Assembly (NCBI GenBank): GCA_018114805.1 | Contig: CP073042.1 | Location: 4,154,001 to 4,218,000, forward strand | Source: Candidatus Streptomyces philanthi | Lineage (GTDB): Bacteria > Actinomycetota > Actinomycetes > Streptomycetales > Streptomycetaceae | DNA: 64,000 nt | Direction of reading: 5' to 3' | Part shown: piece after piece, positions 3,775 to 62,799 of the stretch | Position numbering within the stretch: position 1 is the first letter of the stretch | Layout: each line of letters begins with the position of its first letter | Notes under the pieces: generated by a model | Told to the model about the DNA's origin: nothing | What the model saw: the letters and a program-made list of their open reading frames with translations, nothing else | Database searches by the model: none | Translations under genes and position numbers: made by a program

Positions 3775-4027
3775 ATGAAGCTCAGCCGCCCCGTGTCCTG
3801 GTTCCTGCTCGCGTTCGGGGCGTGGAGCTGGTGCATTTGGTTCACCTTTGTAAAAAAACCTCTGGAAAGACTCAAGCGGACTCGCCTTCGACGAGTCCGG
3901 CGACCCGACCACGTACTTCTGGGTCCATCTCGCGCTCGCGATCACCTCGTTTCTCTTGGGGACGGGGATCGGGGTGCTCGGGTTCCGTGCCGTGCGGGCC
4001 CTGCGGCGCGAAGGCGCCTCGACGTAA
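3775..4027 (+). pseudogene. SCO4848-family small membrane protein, 1-bp homopolymer frameshift
   Basis: A product of about 83 residues starts MKLSRPVSWFLLAFGAWSW and, after the break, reads WVHLALAITSFLLGTGIGVLGF before ending at TAA. This gives two hydrophobic segments, as in the small SCO4848 membrane family usually found beside the DD-carboxypeptidase gene. The frame breaks at a run of seven A after GT near 3850; with six A the two halves join without gap. A homopolymer length error is therefore as likely as a real mutation. Function is unknown. Confidence 0.65.
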
Positions 4028-4042
4028 CGGAAGGATGGGGGG

Positions 4043-38858: not shown

Positions 38859-38870
38859 CTACGCGCGTTA
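38859..38870. promoter_or_regulatory. Degenerate copy of the add/deoC palindrome upstream of BMP gene
   Basis: CTACGCGCGTTA matches CTACGCGCGTAG at 10 of 12 positions and lies 53 bp before the BMP start. TACGAT (38869-38874) overlaps it as a possible -10 element. It is weaker than the add and deoC sites. Confidence 0.45.
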
Positions 38871-38923: not shown

Positions 38924-39955
38924 GTGCGCCGGGCATCCAAGATCGCCGTCGCGGGCATCGCTACCGCGGCACTCGCCTTCTCCGCCACCGCGTGTGGCAG
39001 CAGTTCGGAAGAAGGGGACAAGGGCATCGGCCTGGCGTATGATGTCGGCGGCCGGGGCGACCACTCCTTCAACGACTCCGCGGCCGCGGGCTTCGACAAG
39101 GCGAAGAAGGACCTCAAGGTGGGCGGCAAGGAGATGACCGCCAAGAACACCGACACCGAGGCCGACCGCTACCAGAAGCTCGCCGACCTCGCCGAGGCCG
39201 GCTACAACCCGGTCATCGGCGTCGGTTACGCCTACACCCCCTCGCTCGCCAAGGCGGCCAAGAAGTACAAGGACACCGACTTCGCCATCGTCGACTCGGT
39301 GGTCGAGGCCAAGAACGTGGCCAGCCTGGTCTCCGCCGAGCAGGAGGGCTCCTACCTGGCCGGCGTCGCCGCCGCGCTGAAGAGCAAGTGCGGCAAGGTC
39401 GGCTTCATCGGCGGCACCAACAGCGCGCTGATCAAGAAGTTCGCCGCGGGGTACGTGCAGGGCGTCAAGGAGACTAACCCGAAGGCGACGGTGGACGTCC
39501 AGTGGGTCACCCCGGGCAGCACCGACGGCTTCGGTTTGCCCGACCGCGGTAAGGACATGGCCGAGGGCATGCTCGACAAGAACATCGACGTTATCTACTC
39601 GGCGGCCGGCGGCTCGGGCTCCGGCGCCATCGAGGCCACCGCCAAGAAGAAGGGCGCCTGGTCGATCGGCGTCGACGGCGACCAGTACTACGAGAAGGGC
39701 CTGGCCGACTACAAGAACTCCATCCTCACCTCGGTGGTGAAGAACGTGGACGGCTCCGTCTACGACTTCATCGTCAGCGTCCTGAAGGACAAGAAGGCGA
39801 TGACCGGCGTTCAGACGTACGACCTCAAGCAGGGTGGTGGCGTCTCCCTCTCGTACTCCGGCGGCTTCCTCGACGACATCAAGCCGAAGATCGAAGAGGC
39901 CAAGAAGAAGATCATCGCGGGCGACATCAAGGTGAAGTCCACCTACGCGGGCTGA
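38924..39955 (+). CDS. BMP family nucleoside-binding lipoprotein
   Basis: 343 residues. GTG 38924 has AAGGGGA upstream; the signal VAGIATAALAFSATAC gives a lipid-modified Cys. The periplasmic-binding fold of the Bmp/PnrA family follows: GLAYDVGGRGDHSFNDSAA, YNPVIGVGYAYTPSLAKAA, DFAIVDSVVEAKNVASLVSA and GSGSGAIEATAKKKGAWSIG, with VDGDQYYEKG. PnrA-type proteins bind purine or broad nucleosides. It heads the operon continuing to ABC ATPase, two permeases, cdd and deoA, which supports nucleoside uptake. Confidence 0.9.
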   Translation: MRRASKIAVAGIATAALAFSATACGSSSEEGDKGIGLAYDVGGRGDHSFNDSAAAGFDKAKKDLKVGGKEMTAKNTDTEADRYQKLADLAEAGYNPVIGVGYAYTPSLAKAAKKYKDTDFAIVDSVVEAKNVASLVSAEQEGSYLAGVAAALKSKCGKVGFIGGTNSALIKKFAAGYVQGVKETNPKATVDVQWVTPGSTDGFGLPDRGKDMAEGMLDKNIDVIYSAAGGSGSGAIEATAKKKGAWSIGVDGDQYYEKGLADYKNSILTSVVKNVDGSVYDFIVSVLKDKKAMTGVQTYDLKQGGGVSLSYSGGFLDDIKPKIEEAKKKIIAGDIKVKSTYAG

Positions 39956-40058: not shown

Positions 40059-40117
40059 CTGGGGCGCGGCCTCCCGCTCCCCGCGGGCCCGCCACCACCC
40101 CACCCTCTGGAGTCGCC

Positions 40118-41719
40118 ATCAAAGCCGCCAGCGCCCCAACGGGCGAGCCACCCGCCGGCGAGGAACATCCCTACGCCGTAGAACTCCGCGGAATCACCAA
40201 GCGGTTCCCCGGCGTCGTCGCCAACCACGACATCGACATCTCGGTCCGCCGCGGCACCGTGCACGCCCTCGTCGGCGAGAACGGCGCGGGCAAGTCGACC
40301 CTGATGAAGATCCTCTACGGGATGCAGCGGCCCGACGAGGGCACCATCGCCCTCCACGGCGAAGAGGTCGAACTGCACTCTCCGGCCGACGCCATCGCGC
40401 GCCGGGTGGGCATGGTGCACCAGCACTTCATGCTCGCCGACTACCTGACCGTCCTGGAGAACATCGTCCTCGGCGCCGAGAGGCTGCACGGCATCGGGGC
40501 CAGGGCGCGCGCCAGGGTGCGCGAGATCTCCGAGGCGTACGGACTCGGCGTGCGGCCGGACGCGCTGGTGGAGGACCTGGGCGTCGCCGACCGACAGCGG
40601 GTGGAGATCCTCAAGGTGCTCTACCGCGGCGCCCGCGTCCTCATCCTGGACGAGCCGACCGCGGTGCTGGCGCCGCAGGAGGTCGACGCGCTCTTCGACA
40701 ACCTGCGCGAGCTGACCGCCGAGGGCCTGACCGTCATCTTCATCTCGCACAAGCTGGGCGAGGTGCTCTCGGTCGCCGACGACATCACCGTCATCCGGCG
40801 CGGCACCACCGTCGCCTCCGTCGAGCCGAGCCGGACCACGGCCAAGCGGCTCGCGGAGCTGATGGTCGGCAGCGAGCTGCCCTCGCCGCAGACCTGCCAG
40901 TCGACCGTCACCGACGTGGAGTTGCTGCGCGTCGCCGACCTGCGGCTGAGCGTCGTCGACGCGGACGGCGTGAGCCGCCCCGTCCTCGACGACATCGACC
41001 TCACCATCCGCAAGGGCGAGGTCCTCGGCATCGCCGGCGTCGAGGGCAACGGGCAGGCCGAACTCGTCGAGGCCATCATGGGCATGCGCGACCCCGACGG
41101 CGGCACCATCACGCTGGACGTGCGGGACATCTCGCACGCCCCCACCCGCGCCCGCCGCGAGGGCGGCATCGGCTACATCCCCGAGGACCGGCACCGGCAC
41201 GCGCTGCTGCTGGAGGCCCCGCTGTGGGAGAACCGCATCCTCGGGCACGTCACCGAGGCGCCCAACAGCCGGGGCTGGCTCCTGGACCCGAAGGCCGCGC
41301 GCCGGGACACCGAGCGCATCGTCGCCGAGTACGACGTTCGCACCCCCGGCATCGAGGTGACGGCCGCCTCGCTGTCCGGCGGCAACCAGCAGAAGCTCAT
41401 CGTCGGCCGGGAGATGAGCCACCTGCCCAAGCTGCTCATCGCCGCCCACCCCACGCGCGGCGTGGACGTCGGCGCGCAGGCCCAGATCTGGGACCAGATC
41501 CGCGCCGCCCGCGGCGAGGGCCTCGCGGTGCTGCTGATCTCGGCCGACCTGGACGAGCTGATCGGCCTGTCCGACACGCTGCGGGTGATGTACCGAGGCC
41601 GGCTGGTGGCCGATGCCGACCCCGCCTCGATCACCCCCGAGGAACTGGGTTCGGCGATGACCGGCGCGGCCAGCGGCCACCTGGAGCACCCCACCGACGG
41701 GCCGGGAGAGGGCCGATGA
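40118..41719 (+). CDS. BMP-linked ABC transporter ATP-binding protein, apparent ATC start
   Basis: About 533 residues with two nucleotide-binding domains, as in the sugar/nucleoside importer class. Domain 1 has GENGAGKST, a signature in LGVADRQRVEILK and ILDEPTAVLAP; domain 2 has GVEGNGQAELVEA, LSGGNQQKLIVGREM and LIAAHPTRGVDVGA. In this class the second site is commonly degenerate. The conserved N-terminus ELRGITKRFPGVVANHDIDI has no ATG, GTG or TTG before it; the only codon with a ribosome binding site (GGAG, five bases) is ATC at 40118, probably an altered ATG. GTG 40259 would remove 47 residues including the first strand. It overlaps the permease start by ATGA. Confidence 0.85.
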   Translation: MKAASAPTGEPPAGEEHPYAVELRGITKRFPGVVANHDIDISVRRGTVHALVGENGAGKSTLMKILYGMQRPDEGTIALHGEEVELHSPADAIARRVGMVHQHFMLADYLTVLENIVLGAERLHGIGARARARVREISEAYGLGVRPDALVEDLGVADRQRVEILKVLYRGARVLILDEPTAVLAPQEVDALFDNLRELTAEGLTVIFISHKLGEVLSVADDITVIRRGTTVASVEPSRTTAKRLAELMVGSELPSPQTCQSTVTDVELLRVADLRLSVVDADGVSRPVLDDIDLTIRKGEVLGIAGVEGNGQAELVEAIMGMRDPDGGTITLDVRDISHAPTRARREGGIGYIPEDRHRHALLLEAPLWENRILGHVTEAPNSRGWLLDPKAARRDTERIVAEYDVRTPGIEVTAASLSGGNQQKLIVGREMSHLPKLLIAAHPTRGVDVGAQAQIWDQIRAARGEGLAVLLISADLDELIGLSDTLRVMYRGRLVADADPASITPEELGSAMTGAASGHLEHPTDGPGEGR

Positions 41720-42834
41720 AGAAGTTCGACAAGGAGCGGGTGCTGCTGGCGATCGCCGCGCCCGCCCTCGCCCTGGTCGCCGCGTTCACGGTGACCGCCC
41801 TGGTGCTGCTCGCCACGGGCAAGGAGCCGTTAAACGCCTTCGGCGTGATGTTCGAGTACGGCAGCAAGGCCGACAGCCAGGTCTACATCCTCAACAAGGC
41901 CACCACGTACTACCTGGCCGGCCTCGCCGTCGCCATCGGCTTCCGGATGAACCTGTTCAACATCGGCGTGGACGGCCAGTACCGGCTCTCCGCGTTCATC
42001 GCGGCAGCCGCCGGCGGCGCGATGAACCTGCCGGGCCTGGTGCAGATCCCGCTGATCATCCTGGTGGCGATGCTGGTCGGCGCCATGTGGGCCTCGATCA
42101 CCGGGCTGCTCAAGGTCTACCGCGGCGTCAGCGAGGTGATCAGCACCATCATGCTGAACTCGCTGGCCACCGCCCTGATCAGCTACCTGCTCGTGGACGG
42201 CCGGCTCGGCGTGCTCGACTCCGACACCAACATCGTCTCGACCGAGCCGCTGCCCGAGTCCAGCCACTTCTTCACCATTCCGACCTGCGGCGACCTCGAC
42301 CCGATCTGGGGCTTCCTGGTGGTGGCCGTGCTCGCCGGGTGCGCGTTCTGGTTCGTCCTCGGCCGCACCCGGTTCGGTTTCGACCTGCGCTCGGTGGGCC
42401 GCTCCGAGCCCGCGGCGCAGGCCAGCGGCGTGGGCGTCAAGCGCATGATCGTCACCAGTATGGTGCTCTCCGGCGCGATGGCGGGCCTGGTCGGCATGCC
42501 GACCGTGCTCAACGACACGCACCAGTTCACCGCCGACTTCCCGCTCGGCGTCGGCTTCACCGGCATCGCCGTGGCCCTCCTCGGCCGCAACCACCCGGTC
42601 GGCATCGCGCTGGGCGCGCTGCTGTGGGGCTTCCTGGAACGCGGCGCCAACCGGCTGGAGTTCGAGGGGTACGACAAGGAGATCGTCGGCGTGATGCAGG
42701 GCGTGATCGTGCTGTGCGTCGTCATCGCGTACGAACTGGTGCGCCGCTTCGGTATCAAGCGCCAGCAGCAGCGGGTGGGCGCCGAACTCGCCCAGCAGGC
42801 CGTCAATCTCACCAGGCGGGAGGTGGCCCAGTGA
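41716..42834 (+). CDS. BMP-linked ABC transporter permease 1
   Basis: 372 residues with about nine membrane helices, e.g. VLLAIAAPALALVAAFTVTA, IPLIILVAMLVGAMWASITG, and the coupling loop region DLRSVGRSEPAAQASGVGVK. It belongs to the BPD_transp_2 class that partners BMP-type nucleoside receptors. Its ATG overlaps the ATPase stop and its TGA overlaps the next permease start. A rare TTA leucine codon lies at 41830-41832 (residue 39); in Streptomyces TTA needs the bldA tRNA, so translation may be delayed in development. Confidence 0.92.
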   Translation: MKKFDKERVLLAIAAPALALVAAFTVTALVLLATGKEPLNAFGVMFEYGSKADSQVYILNKATTYYLAGLAVAIGFRMNLFNIGVDGQYRLSAFIAAAAGGAMNLPGLVQIPLIILVAMLVGAMWASITGLLKVYRGVSEVISTIMLNSLATALISYLLVDGRLGVLDSDTNIVSTEPLPESSHFFTIPTCGDLDPIWGFLVVAVLAGCAFWFVLGRTRFGFDLRSVGRSEPAAQASGVGVKRMIVTSMVLSGAMAGLVGMPTVLNDTHQFTADFPLGVGFTGIAVALLGRNHPVGIALGALLWGFLERGANRLEFEGYDKEIVGVMQGVIVLCVVIAYELVRRFGIKRQQQRVGAELAQQAVNLTRREVAQ

Positions 42835-44138
42835 GCGGCGCCCCGACTCTCACCAAGACCCCGAAGGGCCCGCCCGGCGCCTCCCGGACCGCCAGCGGAC
42901 GGCTGTCCTTCGCCAAGGTGCTGCTGATCATCGCGGGCGCCCTGATTACGCTGTCGGTGGTCCGCGAGATCATCGACCAGGTCGCCTCGGGCCAGACCCC
43001 CGCGTTCAACAACATCACCTCCTCCGGCCAGATCGCCGCCGGCCTGTCGATGGCCGTGCCCATCGGCCTCGCCGGCCTCGGCGGGCTGTGGGCCGAGCGG
43101 GCCGGTGTGGTCAACATTGGCCTTGAGGGCATGATGATCCTCGGCACGTTCTTCGGCGCCTGGGCCGGCTACCAGTGGGGCCCGTGCACCGGCGTGCTGG
43201 CCGGGGTGCTCGGCGGCGCGATCGGCGGCCTGGTGCACGCGGTGGCCACGGTCACCTTCGGCGTGGACCACATCATCTCCGGCGTGGCCATCAACATCCT
43301 GGCTCTGGGCGCCACGTCGTACCTGGCCAAGCGCTGGTTCGAGCCGCTGGCCGACGAGGGCGGCAGCCCCAAGCAGTCGCCGCAGGTCGACGACATCCAG
43401 CAGTTCACCGTGCCGGGGCTGGCCGACTGGCTGGCCGACCTGGAGAAGCACCACTGGTTCCTGGTCTCCGACGTGGCCGGCATCCTCGGCGGCCTGGTCA
43501 CCGACATCTCGGCGTTGACCGTGCTGGCCATCGCCCTGTTCGCCGGCACCTTCCTGGTGTTGTGGAAGACCTCGTTCGGGCTACGGCTGCGCTCCTGCGG
43601 CGAGAACCCGACCGCCGCCGAGTCGCTCGGCGTCAATGTCTACTTCTACAAGTACGCGGCGGTCGTCACCTCCGGCGCGCTGGCCGGCCTCGGCGGCGTC
43701 TTCCTCGCCCTGGTCCGCTCGCACATCTACAACGAGGGCCAGACCGGCGGCCGGGGCTACATCGGCCTGGCGGCCATGCTCTTCGGCAACTGGCGCCCCG
43801 GCGGCCTGGCCATGGGCGCGGGCCTGTTCGGCTACTCCGACGCGCTGCAACTGCGCAGCGGCGGCACCACCGTGCACGCCCTGATACTGCTCGTCGCGCT
43901 CGGCCTGCTGGCACTCGCCGTATGGCGACTGACCCGTCAGCACTACATCGCGGCGGGGCTGAGCGGCCTGGCCGCCGCGCTGCTGGTCCTCTGGTACGCG
44001 ATGACCGACTCCGTACCGAACGAGCTGGTCGGCGCCACGCCGTACATCGTCACCCTCCTGGTGATGGCCCTGGCGGCGCAACGGCTCCGCATGCCCAAGG
44101 CCAACAACAAGCCCTACCGAAGGGGACAGGGCGGATGA
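42831..44138 (+). CDS. BMP-linked ABC transporter permease 2
   Basis: 435 residues from a GTG that overlaps the previous stop (GTGA). Helices include VLLIIAGALITLSVVREI, SMAVPIGLAGLGGLWAERAG, VVNIGLEGMMILGTFFGAWA and the coupling loop LRLRSCGENPTAAESLGVNV. The last third carries extra helices (ALILLVALGLLALAVWRL, LSGLAAALLVLWYA), so it is longer than the usual 300-330 residues of this permease type. It forms the second half of the channel with permease 1. It overlaps cdd by ATGA. Confidence 0.92.
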   Translation: MSGAPTLTKTPKGPPGASRTASGRLSFAKVLLIIAGALITLSVVREIIDQVASGQTPAFNNITSSGQIAAGLSMAVPIGLAGLGGLWAERAGVVNIGLEGMMILGTFFGAWAGYQWGPCTGVLAGVLGGAIGGLVHAVATVTFGVDHIISGVAINILALGATSYLAKRWFEPLADEGGSPKQSPQVDDIQQFTVPGLADWLADLEKHHWFLVSDVAGILGGLVTDISALTVLAIALFAGTFLVLWKTSFGLRLRSCGENPTAAESLGVNVYFYKYAAVVTSGALAGLGGVFLALVRSHIYNEGQTGGRGYIGLAAMLFGNWRPGGLAMGAGLFGYSDALQLRSGGTTVHALILLVALGLLALAVWRLTRQHYIAAGLSGLAAALLVLWYAMTDSVPNELVGATPYIVTLLVMALAAQRLRMPKANNKPYRRGQGG

Positions 44139-44644
44139 CCGACGCCCCCGACACCCTCGCCCCGCTCCCCGAGAGCGCCTGGCAGGAGCTGCGGCAGTGG
44201 GCCCGGGAGGCGATGTCCCGGGCCTACGCCCCCTACTCCGGCTTCCCGGTCGGGGCCGCCGCCCTCGTGGACGACGGCCGCACCGTCAGCGGCTGCAACG
44301 TCGAGAACGCCGCCTACGGGGTGGCGCTGTGCGCCGAATGCGGCCTGGTCTCCGCGCTGTTCGCGAGCGGTGGCGGCCGGCTGACCGCGTTCACCTGCTG
44401 CGACCGCGAGGGCCGGGTCCTCATGCCGTGCGGTCGCTGCCGGCAGTTGCTGTGGGAACACGGCGGCCCGCGGCTCCGGATGGACACCGCCCGCGGCATC
44501 CGCCCGCTGGCCGAACTCCTCCCGGACGCCTTCGGCGCCGCCGACCTCGAACGCGCCGCCACCCCTGAGCGCGCCGCCCCCGGGCCCGGTGCCGATCCCG
44601 AGCCGGGCGCCGGTTCCGTGCCCGGCGCTGACCTCGAACGATAG
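44135..44644 (+). CDS. cdd: Cytidine deaminase
   Basis: 169 residues. The zinc site is formed by CAE in GVALCAECGLVSALF (Cys as first ligand, Glu as proton shuttle) and PCGRCRQLLWE. YAPYSGFPVGAAALVDDG and GCNVENAAYGV bind the nucleoside. It converts cytidine and deoxycytidine to uridine forms in the cytosol. The last 40 residues are Pro/Gly/Glu-rich and not part of the fold. ATGA overlap with the transporter gene links uptake to salvage. Confidence 0.93.
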   Translation: MTDAPDTLAPLPESAWQELRQWAREAMSRAYAPYSGFPVGAAALVDDGRTVSGCNVENAAYGVALCAECGLVSALFASGGGRLTAFTCCDREGRVLMPCGRCRQLLWEHGGPRLRMDTARGIRPLAELLPDAFGAADLERAATPERAAPGPGADPEPGAGSVPGADLER

Positions 44645-44794: not shown

Positions 44795-46072
44795 ATGGAC
44801 GCCATCTCCGTCATCCGTGCCAAGCGCGACGGCCACCGCCTCACCGACGCCCAGATCGACTGGGTCATCGACGCGTACACCCGCGGCGAGGTCGCCCACG
44901 AGCAGATGGCCGCGCTGGCCATGGCGATCTACTTGAACGGCATGAACCGCGCCGAGATCGCCCGCTGGACCGCTGCCATCATCGCCTCGGGCGAGCGGAT
45001 GGACTTCTCCTCGCTGCCCCGGATGACCACCGACAAGCACTCGACCGGCGGTGTCGGCGACAAGATTACGTTGCCGCTCGCCCCGCTCGTCGCCGCCTGC
45101 GGTGCCGCCGTCCCGCAGCTCTCGGGCCGCGGCCTCGGCCACACCGGCGGCACCCTGGACAAGCTGGAGTCCATCCCCGGCTGGCGGGCCGCGCTCAGCA
45201 ACGATGAGATGCTCGGCGTGCTGGCCGACGTCGGCTCCGTTATCTGCGCCGCCGGCGACGGCCTGGCCCCCGCCGACAAGAAGCTGTACGCGCTGCGCGA
45301 CGTCACCGGGACCGTCGAGTCTCTCCCCCTCATCGCGTCCTCGATCATATCGAAGAAGATCGCCGAGGGCACGGGTTCGCTGGTCCTGGACGTCAAGGTC
45401 GGCTCCGGCGCCTTCATGAAGGACATCGAGGAGGCCCGTGAGCTGGCCTCCACCATGGTCGGCCTCGGCACGGACCACGGGGTGCGCACGGTCGCGCTGC
45501 TGACCGACATGTCGACCCCGCTCGGGCTGACCGCGGGCAACGCCCTCGAAGTGCGCGAGTCGGTCGAGGTGCTGGCCGGCGGCGGCCCGGCCGACGTGGT
45601 CGAGCTGACCGTGGCACTGGCCCGCGAGATGCTGACGGCGGCAGGGCTGCCCGACGCCGACCCGGCGCGGGCGCTCGCCGACGGTTCGGCCATGGACCAC
45701 TGGCGCCGGATGATCCTCGCGCAGGGCGGCGACCCGGACGCGGAGTTGCCCGTCGCCCGCGAGCAGCACGTGGTCAACGCCTCCGTCGACGGCGTGCTCA
45801 CCACCCTGGACGCCTACGCCGTCGGCGTCGCCGCCTGGCGGCTCGGCGCCGGCCGCGCCCGCCGCGACGACCCGGTCCAGGCGGGCGCCGGCATCGAACT
45901 GCACGCTAAGCCGGGCGACCGCATCACCGCCGGTCAGCCGCTGCTGACCCTGCACACCGACACCCCGGAGAAGTTCGGCTACGCCCTTGAGGCCCTCAAC
46001 GGCGGCGTCCTCATCGCCCCGCCCGAGACGCGGTTCGAACCGCAGCCGGTGGTGCTGGACCGCATCGGGTAG
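44795..46072 (+). CDS. deoA: Thymidine phosphorylase
   Basis: 425 residues with the family signature SGRGLGHTGGTLDKLESIPG (about 109) and the phosphate/nucleoside segment MTTDKHSTGGVGDKIT. SLPLIASSIISKKIAEGTG and VDVK-type LVLDVKVGSGAFMK complete the site. It splits thymidine or deoxyuridine into base and deoxyribose 1-phosphate. It lies 150 bp after cdd on the same strand, probably in the same operon, and feeds the DeoC route encoded at 61.8 kb. Length is normal. Confidence 0.94.
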   Translation: MDAISVIRAKRDGHRLTDAQIDWVIDAYTRGEVAHEQMAALAMAIYLNGMNRAEIARWTAAIIASGERMDFSSLPRMTTDKHSTGGVGDKITLPLAPLVAACGAAVPQLSGRGLGHTGGTLDKLESIPGWRAALSNDEMLGVLADVGSVICAAGDGLAPADKKLYALRDVTGTVESLPLIASSIISKKIAEGTGSLVLDVKVGSGAFMKDIEEARELASTMVGLGTDHGVRTVALLTDMSTPLGLTAGNALEVRESVEVLAGGGPADVVELTVALAREMLTAAGLPDADPARALADGSAMDHWRRMILAQGGDPDAELPVAREQHVVNASVDGVLTTLDAYAVGVAAWRLGAGRARRDDPVQAGAGIELHAKPGDRITAGQPLLTLHTDTPEKFGYALEALNGGVLIAPPETRFEPQPVVLDRIG

Positions 46073-50248: not shown

Positions 50249-51022
50249 CTACCGCCGCAACGACGAGCCGAAGCCCGCCGCGAGCGGCATCTGCAGGCCG
50301 AGCGGGGGCGGGGCGGCTAACGCGTCCGCCAGTGGACGCGCGTAGTCCTGGTCGAAGAGGGAGCCCAGCGCGAAGTCGGCGGCCAGCGCGTACACCTCCT
50401 GGCGGTGCTGGTCGAGGCGGTGGCCGTCGGTGTGCACCTCGAAGCGGCACACCGTGCTGTTGATCTTCTTGGCCCGCTCGACCAGCCGGTAGGAGAGTTC
50501 GGGGTCGGTGTGTTCGTCGTTGCTGCCGTGCACGACGAGCACCTGTCTGCCCGCCATGTGCTTGACCGGGTCCGGGCTCAGCGTGGCCTCCTGGCTCTGT
50601 AGCCACGGGGCGATGGCCAGGACCAAACTCACGGCCGAGTGTCCCGCCGCCAGCAGCGCGGCCCGCGCTCCCATGCCCATCCCGACGAGACAGATCGGCA
50701 CGTCCCCGTAGCGCCGTACCACCTCGTCCGCGGCCCAATCGGCGTCCGCCACGGGGTCCGCGGCCGAGCCGTTCCAGCCGCGACATCGATAGCGGACGAC
50801 GTGCGCGGTCAGCCCCTCCGGCCGGCTCGCCTTCGCCAGCCCGCGCGCGAGCGGCTACATCGCCGCGGCCGACAGCGTGGTCGGCCGTCGGGTTCCGGTT
50901 GGCGTACCGTCGGGCAGCAGCAGCGCCACCCCACCGACGGCCTTCCCCTACGCCGCCACCCCCACGGGCCGCCCCAGCCGGGCGCTTCGATCCGGTCGTT
51001 CCGGCAACGCTTGCTGAGCCAT
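50249..51022 (-). pseudogene. Alpha/beta hydrolase (dienelactone-hydrolase-like) with two internal TAG codons
   Basis: One continuous frame from ATG 51022 encodes GGVALLLPDGTPTG, PLARGLAKASRPEGLTAHVV, RYRCRGWNG, and CLVGMGMGARAALLAAGH (nucleophile elbow GMGMG, where Ser is usual), then VLVVHGSNDEHTDPELSY (acid) and FEVHTDGHRLDQHRQEVY (His). TAG occurs twice, at 50950-50948 and 50857-50855. Only the 168-residue portion from GTG 50752 is open. The Met in place of the nucleophilic Ser makes catalysis doubtful. It is divergent from add. Confidence 0.65.
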
Positions 51023-51107
51023 GTCAGAACGATGGCAGAAGCAACGGTGTACTCCACTAAGCGGACTGGTCACTGTTCCGTATCTATCCAGCCGGATACC
51101 CCGGGCG

Positions 51108-51121
51108 ATCTACGCGCGTAG
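51108..51121. promoter_or_regulatory. Palindromic operator upstream of add
   Basis: ATCTACGCGCGTAG contains the perfect 12-bp palindrome CTACGCGCGTAG (51110-51121). It ends 16 bp before the add ATG. The identical 14-mer precedes deoC at 62786-62799 at nearly the same distance. Confidence 0.75.
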
Positions 51122-51137
51122 GGGCTATGGTGCGCAG

Positions 51138-52268
51138 ATGACGAGCGAGAACACCCAGCAACCCAACCCGGAGCAGATCCGGCGCGCCCCCAAGGTGCTG
51201 CTGCACGACCACCTCGACGGCGGGCTGCGCCCGGCCACCATCGTCGAACTGGCCCGGGAGAACGGCTACGAGGGGCTGTCCGAGACCGACCCCACCGCAC
51301 TCGGCACCTGGTTCCGCGCGGCGGCCGATTCCAGTTCGCTCGAACGCTACTTGGAGACCTTCGCCCACACCTGCGCCGTCCTCCAGACCGCGCAGGCGCT
51401 GCGCCGGGTGGCGGCCGAGTGCGCCGAGGACCTCGCCGCCGACGGCGTCGTCTACGCCGAGGTGCGCTACGCCCCCGAGCAGCACCTGGAGCAGGGGCTG
51501 AAGCTGGAGCAGGTTGTCGAGGCGGTCAACGAGGGCTTCCGCGAGGGGGAGCGCCGGGCGCGCGCGGCCGGTCACCGCATCCGCGTGGGCGCGCTACTCA
51601 CCGCTATGCGGCACGCCGCCCGCTCCCTGGAGATCGCCGAACTGGCCAACCGCTACCGCGACCTGGGCGTCGTCGGCTTCGACATCGCTGGCGCCGAGGC
51701 GGGCTTCCCGCCCACCCGACACCTGGACGCGTTCGAGTACCTCAAGCGCGAGAACAACCACTTCACCATCCACGCCGGCGAGGCGTTCGGCCTGCCGTCG
51801 ATCTGGCAGGCACTCCAGTGGTGCGGCGCCGACCGGCTTGGCCACGGGGTGCGGATCATCGACGACATCCACGTCTCCGAGGACGGCGGCATCAAGCTCG
51901 GCCGGCTCGCGAGCTACGTGCGTGACAAGCGCGTCCCACTGGAACTGTGCCCCACCTCCAACCTGCAGACCGGCTCCGCGAGTTCCTATGCCGAGCACCC
52001 CATCGGGCTGCTGCGCAAGCTGCACTTCCGGGCCACGGTCAACACCGACAACCGGCTCATGAGCAGCACCAGCATGAGCCGCGAGTTCGAGCACCTCGTA
52101 TCGACCTTCGGCTACACGCTGGACGACATGCAGTCGTTCACCGTCAATGCGATGAAGTCCGCGTTCATCCCTTTCGATGAACGTCTGGCGATGATCAACG
52201 ACGTGATCAAGCCCGGTTATGCCGAGCTGAAGGCCGAGTGGCTGTTCCGTCAGACCGCCGTCGGGTAG
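51138..52268 (+). CDS. add: Adenosine deaminase
   Basis: 376 residues with every active-site block of adenosine deaminase: [13 protein letters not shown] (two zinc His), [11 protein letters not shown] (His and catalytic Glu), [19 protein letters not shown] and [12 protein letters not shown] (zinc Asp). It converts adenosine to inosine in the cytosol. ATG 51138 begins [19 protein letters not shown]; upstream in-frame codons lie within the promoter. The operator at 51108-51121 suggests control together with deoC. It is intact. Confidence 0.95.
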
Positions 52269-53811: not shown

Positions 53812-54513
53812 CTACTCCAGCAGGGTCCCCGAGCTCTGGGCGCTCTGGGGCCGCGTGCGCAGGTCCGCGCCGCACTCGTACCGCTTGAGCCCGCCGACCC
53901 CGAGCGCGTCCTCCCCCTCGGGCGCGGCCGGCCCGCCGAGCACCACCGCGCGCCTGCTGCCCACCGCCGGGGTCTCGGTGAAGGTGCACACGAGCTGCGC
54001 CAGCGCGTACGGGGGCAGCTCGTCGGGCTCCCGGTTCAGCCGCAGCGTCCCGGCCGGGTCGCCCTTGGCCGGCCCCGAGACCTGCACCCAGGAGGCCACC
54101 TCGGTGTTGACGCCCACCTTCGCCTCGGCGGCCGACACTGGCTGCTGGAGCTGGTTGAGCAGCGCCCGCGCGAACTCGTCGGGACGCGGCGCCTGGTCAC
54201 CCTTCGGCAGCCGGAGCACCCGCCGCACGGGCAGCAACTGCGCCGAGCACACGAGCTGCATGGTGACGGCGACCCCGTCGGTGGCCCGGGGGGACGCCGC
54301 GGCGCTGGGCAACTGGCACGAGGCGCGCGAGGGCGCCGCGCCCGCGTCCACGGGGACCGAGGTGGAGCGGATGCCGCACCCGGCGACCAGCGACGCGGCG
54401 ACCGCCCCGAACACCCCGAGCGTCGCCGCCCGGCCACCGGGCACGCGGCGCGGCACCCGGAGGGTCGGGCCAACGCCCTGCGTGCCGTACGGGTCCGTGG
54501 TCCGGGGGCTCAT
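53812..54513 (-). CDS. Lipoprotein encoded in the afsQ operon
   Basis: 233 residues. The lipobox VAGC ends GAVAASLVAGC and is followed by GIRSTSVPVDAG. The mature part contains VRRVLRLPKGDQAPRPDEFA and TLRLNREPDELPPYALAQLV, with four Cys that may form disulfides. The start overlaps the afsQ2 stop by ATGA, so it is translationally coupled to the two-component genes and probably takes part in signal detection at the envelope. In S. coelicolor a lipoprotein gene occupies the same place (from memory). Confidence 0.85.
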   Translation of the reverse strand: MSPRTTDPYGTQGVGPTLRVPRRVPGGRAATLGVFGAVAASLVAGCGIRSTSVPVDAGAAPSRASCQLPSAAASPRATDGVAVTMQLVCSAQLLPVRRVLRLPKGDQAPRPDEFARALLNQLQQPVSAAEAKVGVNTEVASWVQVSGPAKGDPAGTLRLNREPDELPPYALAQLVCTFTETPAVGSRRAVVLGGPAAPEGEDALGVGGLKRYECGADLRTRPQSAQSSGTLLE

Positions 54514-56153
54514 CGCTCGCTCCTCTTGTCTTTCCGGTCCCGGTCCTTCTTGCCGTCCCGCCTGTCGGCCTGGTCGGGCCTCTCCGGCTTCTCCGACCTG
54601 TCGGCCTTCCCGGCCTTGCCGGACTTCTTGCTCTGGTCCGCCTGGTCCGACCGGCCCGCGTCCGCGACGACCTCGGAGGCGTCCATCGGCAGGCGCAGCG
54701 TGAAGATCGCGCCGCCCTCGCGAGAGTTGGCCGCGGTGATCTCGCCGCCGTGGATGTGCGCGTTCTCCAGGGCGATCGACAGCCCGAGGCCGCTGCCCTC
54801 CGAGCGCGGGCGGGAGGCGCTGGCCTTGTAGAAGCGGTCGAAGACGTGCGGCAAAACCTCTTCGGGGATGCCGGGGCCGTGGTCGCGTACCTCGATCAGC
54901 AACTCGTCGGCGGCGGGCCGCACCGAGACCCGCACCGGCGAGCCGCCGTGCTTGAGCGCGTTGCCGATCAGGTTGGCCAGGATGACGTCGAGGCGCCGCG
55001 GGTCGAGGCGGGCGACGATGCCGCGCTCCGCGTCCAGCTCCACCGCGTCCAGCCAGGCCCGCGCGTCGATGCAGGCCGTCACCTGGTCGGCGACGTCCAC
55101 GCCGTCCAGGACGAGGCGGGCGGTGCCCGCGTCGAAGCGCGTCACCTCCATCAGGTTCTCCACCAGGTCGTTCAGCCGTCGGGTCTCGCTGACGACGAGC
55201 TGCACGGCGGGCGCGATCATCGGATCGAGCGAGTCCGCCTCCTCCTCGAGGACCTCCGTCACGGCGGTGATCGCCGTCAGCGGCGTCCGCAGCTCGTGCG
55301 ACATGTCGGCGACGAACCGCCGGCTGGACGCCTCCCGCGCGCTCAGGTCGTCAACCCGCTTCTCCAGCGACTCGGCCGTCCGGTTGAACGTACGCGAGAG
55401 GTCGGCTAGTTCGTCCGTGCCCGAGAGCCGCAGCCGGGTGTCCAACTTGCCCTCGCCGAGCTTGCGCGCCGCGTCCGCGAGGCGTTGTACGGGCCGCAGC
55501 ACCGTCGCGGCGGCGGCCTGCGCCACCAGTGCGGAGCCGATCAGCGCGAGCCCGGTGGCGATCCCGAGCGACAAGGCCAGCGAGTTGAGGTCCTGCCGCT
55601 CGTTCTCCAGCGACTTGAGCATGTAGCCGGTGGGGCCGCCGCCGATCACCTTGGCGCCACCCACCAGGTACGGCGCCCCGTCGAGCGAGATCCGCTGCCA
55701 GTACAGGTGGTAGGGGTAGGCGTTCGAGCCGTCCACCGCGCGCTTCTCGTTGACCGCCTTGCGCAGCGCGTCCGGCACCATCTCCCAGTCGAAGGCCTGC
55801 TCGTTGGAGAAGGCCGCGCAGCCGGTGTGGCCGTTCTGCTGGGTGATCAGCAGCACCTCGTACTTCTGCGAGCTCTCCGCCATGTGCTGCGCGGCGACGT
55901 CAAGAGCGTCGCAGTCCGGCTCCAGCGGCAGGGCCCCGGTGTGGTCCTCCAGCGACTTGTGGAAGTCGTCGAGGGCGGCGTTCTGCGTCCGGTTCAGGAC
56001 GGCGTCACGGTTCAGCCAGTACGCGATGCCGGACGCCGAGACGGCGGCGACCAGGGCGACCACGGCGAACACGAGCATCAGCCGCAACCGCAGGCTCATC
56101 CACCGCAGAAGTCCCGCAGCCCAGCCTCGTACTCGACTGGGCCCGTCCGTCAC
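54510..56153 (-). CDS. afsQ2: Sensor histidine kinase AfsQ2-like
   Basis: 547 residues. TM1 (LRLMLVFAVVALVAAVSASGI), an extracytoplasmic sensor of about 165 residues, TM2 (ALSLGIATGLALIGSALVAQ), HAMP (VLRPVQRLADAARKLGEGKL), then DHp with FVADMSHELRTPLTAI (His near residue 286) and ATPase with LIGNALKHGG, DHGPGIPEE, DRFYKA and GSGLGLSIALENA. The last 60 residues are an unusual Lys/Asp/Arg-rich tail. GTG 56153 overlaps the afsQ1 stop (GTGA). It phosphorylates AfsQ1. Confidence 0.93.
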   Translation of the reverse strand: MTDGPSRVRGWAAGLLRWMSLRLRLMLVFAVVALVAAVSASGIAYWLNRDAVLNRTQNAALDDFHKSLEDHTGALPLEPDCDALDVAAQHMAESSQKYEVLLITQQNGHTGCAAFSNEQAFDWEMVPDALRKAVNEKRAVDGSNAYPYHLYWQRISLDGAPYLVGGAKVIGGGPTGYMLKSLENERQDLNSLALSLGIATGLALIGSALVAQAAAATVLRPVQRLADAARKLGEGKLDTRLRLSGTDELADLSRTFNRTAESLEKRVDDLSAREASSRRFVADMSHELRTPLTAITAVTEVLEEEADSLDPMIAPAVQLVVSETRRLNDLVENLMEVTRFDAGTARLVLDGVDVADQVTACIDARAWLDAVELDAERGIVARLDPRRLDVILANLIGNALKHGGSPVRVSVRPAADELLIEVRDHGPGIPEEVLPHVFDRFYKASASRPRSEGSGLGLSIALENAHIHGGEITAANSREGGAIFTLRLPMDASEVVADAGRSDQADQSKKSGKAGKADRSEKPERPDQADRRDGKKDRDRKDKRSER

Positions 56154-56836
56154 TGGGGGGTGTCCAGTCGGTATCCGACCCCCCGCACCGTGCGGATCAG
56201 GGTCGGTGACGAGGGCACGTCCTCGACCTTCGCGCGCAGCCGCTGCACGCACGCGTCGACCAGCCGCGAGTCACCGAGGTAGTCGTGTTCCCATACCAGG
56301 CGCAGCAACTGCTGCCGGAACAGCGCCTGCCCCGGACGCCGGCTCAGCTCCAGCAGGAGTCGCAGCTCGGTGGGGGTGAGCTGGAGATCCTCGCCGTTCT
56401 TGGTGACGGTCATCGCGGAGCGGTCGATCACCAGCGAGCCGAACGACGCCGAGTCGTTCGCCTCCCGCTCGCCGCGGCGCAGCACGGCCCGGATACGGGC
56501 GTCGAGCACCCGCCCCTGCACGGGCTTGACCACGTAGTCGTCCGCGCCGGACTCCAGGCCCACCACGACGTCGATGTCGTCGCTCCGCGCGGTCAGCAAG
56601 ATGATCGGCAACTGGTCGGTGCGCCTGATGCGGCGGCACACCTCGAAGCCGTCAATTCCGGGCAGCATCACATCCAACACGATCAGGTCAGGCCGCTGCT
56701 CGCGCAGCAGCTTGAGGCTGTCCTCTCCCGTGGCCGCCGTCGCCACACGGTGGCCCTGGCGGGACAGGGAGAGTTCGAGGGCCGTGCGGATGGCGTCGTC
56801 GTCCTCGATCAGCAACAGGAAAGGCACGTTGGTCAT
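56150..56836 (-). CDS. afsQ1: Response regulator AfsQ1-like
   Basis: 228 residues of the OmpR/PhoB type. Receiver: LLLIEDDDAIRTALELSL, phosphoacceptor Asp55 in LIVLDVMLPGIDGFEV, Thr82 and Lys104 in DDYVVKPVQGRV. Winged helix: QLTPTELRLLLELSRRPGQA, then RLVDACVQRLRAKVEDVPSS and RGVGYRL. AfsQ1 is a pleiotropic regulator of antibiotics and nitrogen metabolism in S. coelicolor. It is divergent from sigQ and a GTGAC-N6-GTGAC box lies between them. Confidence 0.93.
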   Translation of the reverse strand: MTNVPFLLLIEDDDAIRTALELSLSRQGHRVATAATGEDSLKLLREQRPDLIVLDVMLPGIDGFEVCRRIRRTDQLPIILLTARSDDIDVVVGLESGADDYVVKPVQGRVLDARIRAVLRRGEREANDSASFGSLVIDRSAMTVTKNGEDLQLTPTELRLLLELSRRPGQALFRQQLLRLVWEHDYLGDSRLVDACVQRLRAKVEDVPSSPTLIRTVRGVGYRLDTPQ

Positions 56837-56907
56837 TCTGGCCTACAGGTGGGCTGGAGTTCGACCTCCGGGGCAGCGCGCGACGGCTCGCCCGGGATTC
56901 GGGGCCT

Positions 56908-56923
56908 GTGACACGGCTGTGAC
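56908..56923. promoter_or_regulatory. Predicted AfsQ1-binding box
   Basis: GTGAC ACGGCT GTGAC matches the published AfsQ1 consensus GTnAC-N6-GTnAC and sits in the 194-bp region between afsQ1 and sigQ, 72 bp from the afsQ1 start. Confidence 0.75.
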
Positions 56924-57030
56924 AGTCGACGGACAACGCGATGAAACTGGCTTGCCAGTCTTTTGGTCACCGGGCGGAACCCACCCGGTAGGCAAGAGAC
57001 CGAGACAAGCTCCACGACGGGGGGCGCGAC

Positions 57031-59398: not shown

Positions 59399-60283
59399 TC
59401 AGACGCCCATCGGGTGCCAGACGGTCTTGGTCTCCAGCAGGGAGAGCATCCGCTCGGTGCCGGGGTCGGCCAACCAGTGGTCGCCTTTGGCCGTGTCCCC
59501 AGGCTGTGGACGCAGGACGCGCTTGAGGTTGTCGGCCGCGGCCCGCTCCAGCTCGACCGCCAACTCGCCGGGCGCGCCGGCCAGGTCGATCGCGTTGACG
59601 TCCTGGTGGGCGGCGAGCGGCGGGCCCAGCTCGGCGGCCCGGCCCGAGAGGATGTTGACCACGCCGCCGGGCAGGTCGGAGGTGGCCAGCACCTCGCCGA
59701 GGGACAGGGCCGGCAGCGGCGCCCGCTCGCTGGCGACCACCACGACCGTGTTGCCCGTGACGATCGCTGGGGCGATCACCGACACCAGGCCGAGGAAGGC
59801 GGAGTCGGTCGGCGCGAGGACCGCCACCACGCCGGTCGGCTCGGGCGTGGAGAGGTTGAAGTACGGCCCGGCGACGGGGTTGGCCGCGCCGGCGACCTGG
59901 GCCACCTTGTCGGACCAGCCCGCGTACCAGACCCACCGGTCGATCGCCGCGTCCACCCGCGCCGCGGCCTTCTTGGCCGACACGCCGTCGGCCGCGGCCA
60001 CCTCGGCGGCGAACTGCTCGCGGCGGCCCTCCAGCATCTCGGCGACCCGGTAGAGGATCTGGCCTCGGTTGTACGCCGTCGCGCCCGACCAGGGGCCGAA
60101 CGCCTTGCGGGCCCCGACGACCGCGTCCCGGACGTCCTTGCGGGAGGAGAGCGGGGCGTTCGCCAGCCATGCGCCCTTTGCGTCAGTCACCTCGTACACC
60201 CGCCGGCTCTCGGACCGGGGGAACTTCCCCCCGACGAACAGCTTGTAGGTCTTGAGCACACTCAAGCGGTCAACAGTGGACAT
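59399..60283 (-). CDS. Aldehyde dehydrogenase-like protein lacking the catalytic Cys (ALDH16-like C-terminal half)
   Basis: 294 residues with an ALDH N-terminal NAD-fold: KTYKLFVGGKFPRSESRRVY, VVGARKAFGPWSGATAYNRG, WYAGWSDKVAQVAGAANPVA, VTGNTVVVVASERAPLPALS. The Asn loop PWNFP is replaced by APTDSAF, and the chain ends before any GQxCC segment, so the active-site Cys and Glu are missing. Its start overlaps the stop of the complete ALDH upstream by one base. A full ALDH followed by a Cys-less ALDH domain is the layout of ALDH16 proteins, here as two coupled genes, suggesting a structural or regulatory partner. Confidence 0.85.
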   Translation of the reverse strand: MSTVDRLSVLKTYKLFVGGKFPRSESRRVYEVTDAKGAWLANAPLSSRKDVRDAVVGARKAFGPWSGATAYNRGQILYRVAEMLEGRREQFAAEVAAADGVSAKKAAARVDAAIDRWVWYAGWSDKVAQVAGAANPVAGPYFNLSTPEPTGVVAVLAPTDSAFLGLVSVIAPAIVTGNTVVVVASERAPLPALSLGEVLATSDLPGGVVNILSGRAAELGPPLAAHQDVNAIDLAGAPGELAVELERAAADNLKRVLRPQPGDTAKGDHWLADPGTERMLSLLETKTVWHPMGV

Positions 60284-61764
60284 CAGCGGTCGCCCTCCGG
60301 GCTCGACGTTCCGGCGCGGTCCTCCTGCGGGCCCGCAGCGGCGAGGTACGCCTCCAGGCCGTGCCGGCCGCCCTCGCGGCCGTAGCCCGACTCCTTGTAG
60401 CCCCCGAACGGCGACGTCGGGTCGAACTTGTTGAAGGTGTTGGACCACACGATGCCGGCGCGCAGCTTGCTCGCCATCCACAGGCTGCGGCTGCCCTTCT
60501 CGGTCCAGATGCCCGCCGAGAGGCCGTACGGGGTGTTGTTAGCCTTCTCCACCGCTTCGGCCGGGGTGCGGAAGGTCAGCACCGACAGGACCGGGCCGAA
60601 GATCTCCTCGCAGGCGATGCGGTGCGCCTGGGTGACGCCCGTGAACAGGGTGGGCGCGAACCAGTAGCCCGTGGACGGCAGGTCGCACGCCGGCGCCCAG
60701 CGCTCGGCGCCCTCCGCTTCGCTGGCCTCGGCCAGCGCCGTGATCCGGGCGAGCTGCTCGGCGGAGTTGATGGCGCCGACGTCGGTGTTCTTGTCGAGCG
60801 GGTCGCCGACGCGCAGCGTGGCCATCCGCCGCTTGAGCGCGTCCAGCAACTCGTCGGCCACCGACTCCTGCGCCAGCAGCCGCGAGCCCGCGCAGCACAC
60901 GTGGCCCTGGTTGAAGAAGATGCCGTTGACCATGCCCTCGACGGCCTGGTCGATGGGAGCGTCGTCGAAGACGATGTTGGCCGCCTTGCCGCCCAGCTCC
61001 AGCGTCAGCTTCTTGTCAGTGCCGGCCACCGTGCGGGCGATCTGCCGGCCGACCTCGGTGGAGCCGGTGAACGCGACCTTGTTGACGTCCGGGTGGGACA
61101 CCAGCGCGGCGCCGGTCGAGCCGTCGCCGGTGAGGATGTTGACCACGCCGCGCGGCAGCCCGGCCTGGCGGCAGACGTCGGCGAAGAACAGCGCGGACAG
61201 CGGGGTGGTCTCGGCCGGCTTGAGCACCACCGTGTTGCCGGTGGCCAGCGCCGGGGCGATCTTCCAGGCCAGCATCATCAGCGGGAAGTTCCACGGGATG
61301 ACCTGGCCCGCCACGCCCAGCGGCCGCGGGTTCGGGCCGAAGCCCGCGTGGTCCAACTTGTCGGCCCAGCCCGCGTAGTAGAAGAAGTGCGCGGCGGTCA
61401 GCGGCAGGTCGGTGTCCCGGGTCTCGCGGATGGGCTTGCCGTTGTCCAGCGACTCCAGGACGGCCAGCTCGCGCGAGCGCTCCTGTATGACGCGGGCGAT
61501 GCGGAAGAGGTACTTGGCGCGCTCGGCGCCCGGCAGTGCCGACCACGGGCCGAACGCCCGGCGGGCCGCCCTGACCGCCCGGTCCAAGTCCGCCTCGCTG
61601 GCGTGGGCGACCTCGGAGAGCACCTCCTCGGAGGCGGGCGCCACGGTCTTGAAGACCTTGCCGTCCGACGCCTCCTGGAACTCGCCGTCGATGAAGAGCC
61701 CGTAGGACGGACCGATGTCCACCACCGCGCGGGACTCGGGTGCGGGTGCGTAGTCGAAAGCCAT
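60283..61764 (-). CDS. NAD(P)-dependent aldehyde dehydrogenase
   Basis: 493 residues with full ALDH chemistry: GQVIPWNFPLMMLAWKIAPA, TGSTEVGRQIARTVAG, catalytic Glu in LTLELGGKAANIV (about 255), catalytic Cys in FFNQGHVCCAGSRLL (about 290), and CEEIFGPVLSVLTF. ATG 61764 is five bases from the deoC stop, giving an operon deoC-ALDH-ALDH-like. The likely substrate is acetaldehyde released by DeoC, giving acetate, though glyceraldehyde-type substrates are also possible. It is intact. Confidence 0.92.
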   Translation of the reverse strand: MAFDYAPAPESRAVVDIGPSYGLFIDGEFQEASDGKVFKTVAPASEEVLSEVAHASEADLDRAVRAARRAFGPWSALPGAERAKYLFRIARVIQERSRELAVLESLDNGKPIRETRDTDLPLTAAHFFYYAGWADKLDHAGFGPNPRPLGVAGQVIPWNFPLMMLAWKIAPALATGNTVVLKPAETTPLSALFFADVCRQAGLPRGVVNILTGDGSTGAALVSHPDVNKVAFTGSTEVGRQIARTVAGTDKKLTLELGGKAANIVFDDAPIDQAVEGMVNGIFFNQGHVCCAGSRLLAQESVADELLDALKRRMATLRVGDPLDKNTDVGAINSAEQLARITALAEASEAEGAERWAPACDLPSTGYWFAPTLFTGVTQAHRIACEEIFGPVLSVLTFRTPAEAVEKANNTPYGLSAGIWTEKGSRSLWMASKLRAGIVWSNTFNKFDPTSPFGGYKESGYGREGGRHGLEAYLAAAGPQEDRAGTSSPEGDR

Positions 61765-61769
61765 CTGTC

Positions 61770-62768
61770 TCAGTCCACCGTCACGTAGTCGGGACCGGAG
61801 TAGCGCCCGGTGCTCAGCTTCTGGCGCTGCATCAGCAGGTCGTTCAGCAGGCTGGAGGCGCCGAAGCGGAACCAGTCGGCCGACAGCCAGCGCTCGCCCA
61901 GTGTCTCGTTCACCAACACCAGGTACTTGACGGCGTCCTTGGTCGTCCGGATGCCGCCGGCCGGCTTGACGCCGACCTGCACGCCGGTGGTCGCGTGGAA
62001 GTCGCGCACCGCCTCCAGCATCAGCAGCGTCACCGGCGGCGTGGCGTTGACCGCCACCTTGCCGGTCGAGGTCTTGATGAAGTCGGCGCCGGCGAGCATC
62101 GCGAGCCAGGAGGCGCGGCGCACGTTGTCGTACGTCTGGAGCTCGCCGGTCTCGAAGATGACCTTGAGGTGGGCGGCGTTGCCGGCTTCGGAGCCGACGG
62201 GCCGGGCGCACGCCTGCTTGACCGCCCTGATCTCCTCGAAGACCTCCATGTACCGGCCGGAGAGGAAGGCGCCGCGGTCGATCACCATGTCGATCTCGTC
62301 CGCGCCGGCCGCCACCGCGTCCCGCGTGTCGGCCAGCTTGACCGGCAGCGCGGCGCGGCCCGCCGGGAACGCGGTGGCCACCGAGGCGACCTTGACCCCG
62401 GAGCCGGCGACGGCCTGGCGCGCGGTGGCCACCATGTCCGGGTAGACGCAGATGGCGGCGACCGGGGGCGCCCCGTCGCCGGGGCGCATGCCCTTGGCGC
62501 CGAGCGCCCGGACCTTGCCGGGGGTGTCGGCGCCTTCGAGTGTCGTCAGGTCGACCATCGAGATCGCCAGGTCGATGGCGTACGCCTTCGCCGACGTCTT
62601 GATCGAGCGGGTGCCGAGCGTCGCGGCGCGGGCGTCGAGGCCGACCGCGTCGACCCCCGGCAGGCCGTGCAGGAAGCGGCGCAGCGCGCCGTCGCTCGCG
62701 GTCACGTCCGCCAGCGATGCCAGGCGCCGCGCGGCTTCGTCGCCGTATGCGGGAACTGTTGTGGGCAT
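61770..62768 (-). CDS. deoC: Deoxyribose-phosphate aldolase
   Basis: 332 residues. Class I aldolase TIM barrel with AAICVYPDMVATARQAV, KVASVATAFPAGRAALPVK, DEIDMVIDRGAFLSGRY, the Schiff-base region HLKVIFETGEL and TSTGKVAVNATPP, and GVKPAGGIRTTKDAVKYL. It cleaves 2-deoxyribose 5-phosphate into glyceraldehyde 3-phosphate and acetaldehyde. Longer than E. coli DeoC (259), as usual for this actinobacterial form. First gene of the leftward operon; the operator palindrome ends 18 bp upstream of the ATG at 62768. Confidence 0.94.
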   Translation of the reverse strand: MPTTVPAYGDEAARRLASLADVTASDGALRRFLHGLPGVDAVGLDARAATLGTRSIKTSAKAYAIDLAISMVDLTTLEGADTPGKVRALGAKGMRPGDGAPPVAAICVYPDMVATARQAVAGSGVKVASVATAFPAGRAALPVKLADTRDAVAAGADEIDMVIDRGAFLSGRYMEVFEEIRAVKQACARPVGSEAGNAAHLKVIFETGELQTYDNVRRASWLAMLAGADFIKTSTGKVAVNATPPVTLLMLEAVRDFHATTGVQVGVKPAGGIRTTKDAVKYLVLVNETLGERWLSADWFRFGASSLLNDLLMQRQKLSTGRYSGPDYVTVD

Positions 62769-62785
62769 GGTCACCAGGCGAGCAT

Positions 62786-62799
62786 ATCTACGCGCGTAG
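62786..62799. promoter_or_regulatory. Palindromic operator upstream of deoC
   Basis: ATCTACGCGCGTAG, identical over 14 bp to the site before add, lies 17 bp from the deoC start. The core CTACGCGCGTAG (62788-62799) is a perfect palindrome. Confidence 0.75.

Follow-up and report, generated by a model that had tools for sequence, protein, structure and literature searches.

A palindromic operator before nucleoside catabolism genes of the Streptomycetaceae and a probable LacI-family repressor

In the genome of Candidatus Streptomyces philanthi the same short sequence, ATCTACGCGCGTAG, stands before both add and deoC, two genes of nucleoside catabolism, which raises the question of whether it is an operator, how far the corresponding regulon extends and which protein reads it. 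Within the window, by which we mean the whole stretch of 64,000 nucleotides that was analysed (contig CP073042.1, positions 4,154,001 to 4,218,000), this 14-mer occurs exactly at 51108-51121 and 62786-62799 and has no other copy, as the original prediction had claimed. It had also been described as a 14-bp palindrome. The palindromy stands, but it is perfect only in the 12-bp core CTACGCGCGTAG and does not extend to the 14-mer itself, whose orientation relative to the gene is opposite at the two promoters. The end of the 14-mer lies 16 bp from the ATG of add (51138) and 17 bp from that of deoC (62768, minus strand), in agreement with the 16-17 bp first reported; if deoC starts at an alternative GTG at 62774, the 14-mer is 11 bp upstream. 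Sharing by chance had been held to be very unlikely, and the genome bears this out: the core is present three times in 7,341,895 bp (window positions 51110 and 62788, genome position 4220906), as against zero copies of a reversed-pattern control. All three copies fall within 16 kb. A simple estimate, assuming 72% GC (71.5-72.9% was measured in the window), predicts 0.8 copies per genome and 0.002 per 16 kb.

The third exact core, 2.9 kb beyond the end of the window, is located upstream of pnp, which encodes a purine nucleoside phosphorylase (PF01048) and is followed by a phosphomannomutase-like gene (the latter named from its sequence). The window also contains a degenerate copy, CTACGCGCGTTA, with two mismatches, upstream of the nucleoside ABC-transporter operon that begins with bmp and whose gene run continues into cdd and deoA (Table 1). 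Sites with one mismatch occur at 11 places in this genome; one of them, CTACGCGCGGAG, precedes an NCS2-type purine permease gene (L011, around position 1501; name from sequence), and no nucleoside gene was recognised at the others. Two further features of the window deserve mention in their own right. The ATPase gene of the transporter may begin with ATC, an unusual start codon, behind a GGAG-type ribosome site (40106-40130), and its orthologues begin alike (I-N/K-A) after the putative ATC (e.g. L071 near 4001-4060). Between add and deoC (54510-57822) lie genes for a sensor kinase, a response regulator and an RNA polymerase sigma factor, which we take to be of the afsQ and sigQ type.

Table 1. 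Coordinates of the operator copies and nucleoside genes in the window.
Feature	Position	Strand	Remarks
Degenerate operator CTACGCGCGTTA	38859..38870	+	2 mismatches; upstream of bmp
bmp, nucleoside ABC transporter substrate-binding lipoprotein	38924..39955	+	First gene of operon; PF02608
ABC ATPase of the bmp transporter	40118..41719	+	Name from sequence; start uncertain, possibly ATC
ABC permease of the bmp transporter	42831..44138	+	Name from sequence
cdd, cytidine deaminase	44135..44644	+	PF00383
deoA, pyrimidine-nucleoside phosphorylase	44795..46072	+	PF00591, PF07831
Operator core CTACGCGCGTAG, add promoter	51110..51121	none	-10-like TATGGT starts 4 bp downstream, ATG 6 bp after (by eye)
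add, adenosine deaminase	51138..52268	+	PF00962
Second aldehyde dehydrogenase-like gene	59399..60283	-	Same strand as deoC; name from sequence
Aldehyde dehydrogenase-like gene	60283..61764	-	Directly downstream of deoC, same strand; name from sequence
deoC, deoxyribose-phosphate aldolase	61770..62768	-	PF01791
Operator core CTACGCGCGTAG, deoC promoter	62788..62799	none	-10-like TATGCT 1 bp downstream on minus strand, GTG 6 bp further (by eye)

The promoters of add, deoC and pnp have the layout of leaderless genes, the operator lying shortly before a -10-like box read by eye. The core is separated from this box by 4 bp at add, 1 bp at deoC and 12 bp at pnp (where the box reads TACCCT), and each box lies 6-7 bp from the start codon. 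A consensus promoter scan of positions 51000-51200, around the start of add, returned no standard promoter; the boxes were therefore read by eye and no -35 element was assigned. An operator placed just upstream of the -10 box of a leaderless gene fits steric repression.

If the palindrome is functional, it should be conserved among relatives. In a sample of 61 genomes comprising our own and its relatives, all 37 genomes of the genus (own included) carry three to six copies of the core, or 142 copies in total versus 26 of the control. A draw of 297 Streptomycetaceae genomes at least 95% complete contained the core without exception, in 16 of 16 genera. The pattern is different outside the family: in a class-wide draw the core was found in 44/44 genomes of the genus versus 13/349 outside the family, where 12 of the 13 positive genomes have a single copy and the control pattern is at least as common, and in an order-wide draw in 105/105 versus 3/14. 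None of 30 outgroup add promoters contains a site with two or fewer mismatches (one of them had little upstream DNA, and some add genes may have no promoter of their own). Some isolated exact sites were inspected. One genome outside the family with three of them (G412) was dropped as a chance case, no nucleoside gene being recognised beside the sites; the single hits of two other genomes (G041 and G042) fall within a coding region resembling guaB (named from sequence), and that of a fourth (G037) adjoins no recognised nucleoside gene. Within the family, one-mismatch forms such as CTACGCGTGTAG or CTACGCGCATAG replace the exact site in some genomes. The exact site was found upstream of pnp in 43/46 loci, deoC in 13/16, add in 38/39 and the transporter ATPase in 28/30, counts that are biased since most loci were fetched with the exact pattern; the copy before the bmp operon of our window is the poorest match of the 30 ATPase upstream regions.

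In 21 genomes from 14 other genera of the family, 48 sites were assigned to add (18), pnp (13), deoC (6), the transporter ATPase (4) and other positions (7), one of which (L241) turned out on inspection to be deoC, so that 42/48 sites precede one of these four genes. The remaining six comprise two purN-like promoters (L203 and L205), the double site L200 and three sites that adjoin no recognised nucleoside gene. The expected conservation before orthologues is family-wide, but uneven by gene (add 18, pnp 13, deoC 7 in these 21 genomes). We also scanned a collection of named genomes with the 14-mer, which yielded at least 120 stretches, 108 from the family and 12 from elsewhere among the matches listed. 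These contain, again among the matches listed, at least 132 cores, located at deoC (49, some labels resting on promoter sequence at the stretch end), pnp (46), add (23), a second add gene, add2 (1), and other positions (13). Among the 13 others, one, situated where a contig ends, was recognised on inspection as a pnp-type promoter (L417), and 12 lie outside the family. Random placement, the outcome that would have spoken against the original prediction, is not what we see: all 120 Streptomycetaceae sites among the matches listed, from Streptomyces, Actinacidiphila and Kitasatospora, precede pnp, deoC, add or add2.

In eight genomes (L062, L063, L147-L150, L152 and L156) the operator overlaps codons 3-7 of the add2 gene. 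In the first 100 codons of these genes, 53 of 81 degenerate codons are invariant, and only two of the invariant ones end in A or T, GCT and GTA, which account for 2.1% and 3.4% of their codon families. Both are inside the site, which points to selection on the DNA.

Some lineages show further positions of the site. It occurs in exact form before a purN-like gene in two genera (L203:6001 in G073 and L205:5001 in G072), hinting at a link with purine synthesis, and 161 bp before a 5'-nucleotidase-like gene (L151:5001 in G155). In G024 (L146:5001) and G106 (L158:5001) an exact copy is found about 16 bp ahead of the point where a HAD-type hydrolase gene starts; all three gene names are from sequence. 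It is also present near a gene for an oligopeptide-type ABC substrate-binding protein in G076 (L200:6001, doubled, with one copy degenerate) and G011 (L069:5001).

Published expression data agree with a common control of the main targets. According to Table 3 of PMC6302529, transcripts of the orthologues of SCO4917, SCO4914 and SCO4901 increase in parallel in RNA-seq of a Streptomyces lividans strain making heterologous CelA, from 5 to 64, from 7 to 69 and from 11 to 49 TPM, respectively. Judged by their names, they correspond to the three genes with an exact site in our genome. A ChIP signal of WblC has been reported at the SCO4914 promoter (text consulted of PMC7157823). Among the papers listed in our literature searches we recognised no description of the site or the regulon and no published binding data. 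Taken together, conservation and location make it nearly certain that the palindrome is the operator of a family-wide nucleoside regulon. The proposal of a nucleoside-salvage regulon thus gains support from conservation, genome-wide location, co-induction in S. lividans and additional members, since beyond add and deoC the regulon would include pnp, the nucleoside ABC transporter and the second add gene.

The original prediction named no regulator, and here the evidence points to a LacI-family protein encoded elsewhere in the genome. The first indication comes from distant operons headed by the same operator. Among the 12 non-family hits listed, four contain the full 16-mer ATCTACGCGCGTAGAT, those of Serratia, Pantoea, Rothia and the Enterobacteriaceae strain RIT693. 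In Serratia bockelmannii it heads an MFS transporter - LacI - nucleoside hydrolase (PF01156) operon and in Pantoea allii an MFS - LacI pair. In Rothia santali two operators precede a ribokinase-like gene and a LacI gene, and a nucleoside hydrolase-like gene follows downstream on that strand (names from sequence); in RIT693 the 16-mer heads the same MFS gene, the stretch ending before the next gene. The LacI proteins of Serratia, Pantoea and Rothia have in common the helix GTSxAVVSYV, which a scan of all 120 stretches listed, the 108 from the family included, detected nowhere else; 9 of the 12 non-family stretches listed show no such LacI, among them the truncated one of RIT693. A protein search with the Serratia LacI also found E. 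coli plasmids, and one that was opened carries an MFS - LacI - hydrolase operon with ATCTACGCGAGTAGAT and a weaker copy just upstream. The operators beside the LacI genes of Serratia, Pantoea and this plasmid are identical in all 16 positions or differ by one mismatch.

Other relatives of these LacI proteins show what is constant and what is not. A Streptomyces plasmid with an MFS - LacI pair has GTCTACACGAGTAGCG upstream, and in relatives from Nonomuraea and S. atratus palindromes of the type TCTAATCG adjoin the LacI gene, keeping the outer TCTA...TAGA with different inner bases. On a plasmid of S. atratus (L439:3021-6978), add, nucleoside hydrolase and PfkB kinase genes are divergent from a LacI gene with GTCTAATCGTTTAGAT between them, a cluster that reads as a nucleoside operon with a local LacI regulator from this clade. 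No CTAC-type site was seen at the LacI relatives of Embleya and S. chartreusis. Judged from these sequences, the outer half-site, and often the pathway where genes are visible, appears to go with this LacI clade, while the inner bases vary, so that the helix by itself is not enough to determine every base of the site. A palindromic operator with a central CG is typical of LacI-family regulators; several of the related LacI proteins with this helix have CG-centred sites beside them, and the Streptomyces core joins the half-sites CTACGC and GCGTAG.

The genome analysed here encodes a LacI protein with the helix GTSxAVVSYV as an orphan, downstream of a GlnR-like gene (G000:C1:3814499, L164) and about 0.4 Mb from the regulon. 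Its helix-turn-helix matches PF00356 with 51.9 bits (cut-off 27) and its effector domain, of the periplasmic-binding-protein-like type, PF13377 with 103 bits; among PDB entries, the closest in sequence are CcpA, a ribose operon repressor and PurR. Over a 30-residue segment of the helix-turn-helix, 25-26 residues are identical to the LacI proteins of Serratia, Pantoea and the E. coli plasmid, versus 13-16 for four other LacI proteins of the same genome. Each of the five family genomes surveyed (G000, G260, G070, G080 and G061) encodes such a LacI, its gene following one of the OmpR/GlnR type. Three observations speak against this protein: its gene is far from the regulon, its own promoter contains no more than the half-site CCCGCGTAGACT, in four of the five genomes, and full-length identity between the Streptomyces and enterobacterial proteins is only 38-40%. 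None of the eight LacI-type loci of our genome has an operator match better than three mismatches. SCO4158 of S. coelicolor is placed downstream of glnR in PMC9739823; we therefore refer to the orphan as the SCO4158 type and take it as the orthologue. The protein has been mentioned for effects on pigmented antibiotics (Meng 2012, as cited in PMC9739823), for its abundance when phosphate is limiting (PMC9739823), in a list of regulators that respond to glucose (PMC4848846) and in a table of ArgR sites (PMC5839063); the portions of these three sources available to us give no operator or regulon of its own. The shared helix, operator and pathway make it very probable that CTACGCGCGTAG, extended to ATCTACGCGCGTAGAT, functions as the operator for a LacI-family repressor that controls nucleoside catabolism, here most likely the orphan LacI of the SCO4158 type.

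The most serious competitor is a regulator of the DeoR family (SCO4920 type), which would read the operator much as E. coli DeoR does, with deoxyribose phosphate as inducer. The E. coli DeoR regulon (deoCABD, nupG) is governed by a 16-bp palindrome over the promoter, with TGTTAGAATTCTAACA as operator. The regulon described here resembles it and serves the same pathway, and a gene for a DeoR-type protein with a DeoRC domain lies about 2.3 kb from the pnp operator. Such a regulator is present in 19/19 family genomes versus 0/11 outgroup genomes (E<=1e-60), its gene is 2-24 kb from an operator where both are on one contig, and its DNA-binding region is almost invariant over the 19 genomes. However, this co-occurrence rests on one evolutionary contrast, and the site is missing from the gene's own promoters in all 19 genomes (best match with three mismatches), which led us to demote DeoR to a rival. 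These promoters share a different conserved element instead, in our genome an inverted repeat, CTGAAAGTA...TACTTTCAG (L059:7100-7240), with variants in the 18 others. Read directly, the site is not an E. coli DeoR-type operator, ATCTACGCGCGTAGAT differing from TGTTAGAATTCTAACA; add is a member of the regulon here, a difference from E. coli, and the proposed regulator belongs to another family. Outside the Streptomycetaceae, the genes beside the full 16-mer include LacI, and reading the stretches, as distinct from a DeoR family search, brought no DeoR gene to notice. Finally, an expression module centred on SCO4920 has been described with sigma factors, bldN and a conservon, and the word nucleoside does not appear in the main text consulted (PMC3224704). 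We thus regard control by DeoR as unlikely.

Still less probable is that another regulator (a different LacI, or a GntR, TetR or similar protein) binds the palindrome and that the match with the enterobacterial LacI operators is convergent. The regulators listed in our genome were of the DeoR type (five) and the LacI type (eight) only, which leaves room for such a protein; yet convergence would need to yield an identical 16-bp site, a pathway in common and, as a separate event, the LacI helix found in the family. That the palindrome is a promoter element or other structural signal is very improbable: it does lie near a -10-like box in the add, deoC and pnp promoters, but at differing distances (4, 1 and 12 bp), it also occurs inside the first codons of add2, and it has the perfect two-fold symmetry read by dimeric regulators.

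In this model the orphan LacI would bind as a dimer shortly before the -10 element at add, deoC, pnp-pmm and the nucleoside ABC-transporter operon, where it would obstruct RNA polymerase. Once the cell takes up nucleosides that come from the breakdown of DNA and RNA, one of these, or a derivative such as ribose or a sugar phosphate, may release the protein. That the Streptomyces protein binds the site, that it represses and what induces it are inferred from the genomic evidence.

Regulators of nucleoside genes from the LacI family are a known kind (PMC4052901), to which the Streptomyces case would add a new one; SCO4158 is absent from the main text of that source as available to us. CytR, UriR, AdeR, HpxR, PurR and the bifidobacterial RbsR3 likewise combine the LacI fold, a palindromic operator and control of nucleoside transport and breakdown. 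RbsR3 reads TGATAAAACGTTTTATCA, from which the Streptomyces operator differs, and unlike these regulators the proposed repressor is an orphan beside a GlnR-like gene and would act in trans. GvmR / ScnR1, which regulate guvermectin in Streptomyces, are also of the LacI family, with a 14-bp CG-centred operator in a purine-nucleoside context, but their operator is RTCATWCGYATGAY and their target a biosynthetic cluster, as described in the part consulted of PMC12292694.

A broader reading, to which we give somewhat less than even weight, is that the glnR-linked orphan LacI would be a Streptomycetaceae-wide master switch for nucleosides from dying mycelium. It would have started out in a local transporter - LacI - nucleoside hydrolase operon, like those that enterobacteria, Rothia and plasmids still carry, and been rewired to act in trans on a regulon that connects the recycling of nucleic acids with nitrogen control and with development. 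On the same tentative reading, some lineages would have extended this regulon to purN, to a peptide-type ABC transporter and a 5'-nucleotidase, and to add2, with the operator embedded in its first codons. During development, Streptomyces colonies reuse the DNA and RNA of their own cells, and a nucleoside switch encoded beside a nitrogen regulator gene could therefore plausibly link cell death, nitrogen and secondary metabolism. The case also shows that searching all genomes for an operator without a known regulator can lead to that regulator by way of distant local operons. In the present case, a palindrome without known meaning and an orphan regulator without known target would come together as one testable circuit in the main antibiotic-producing family.
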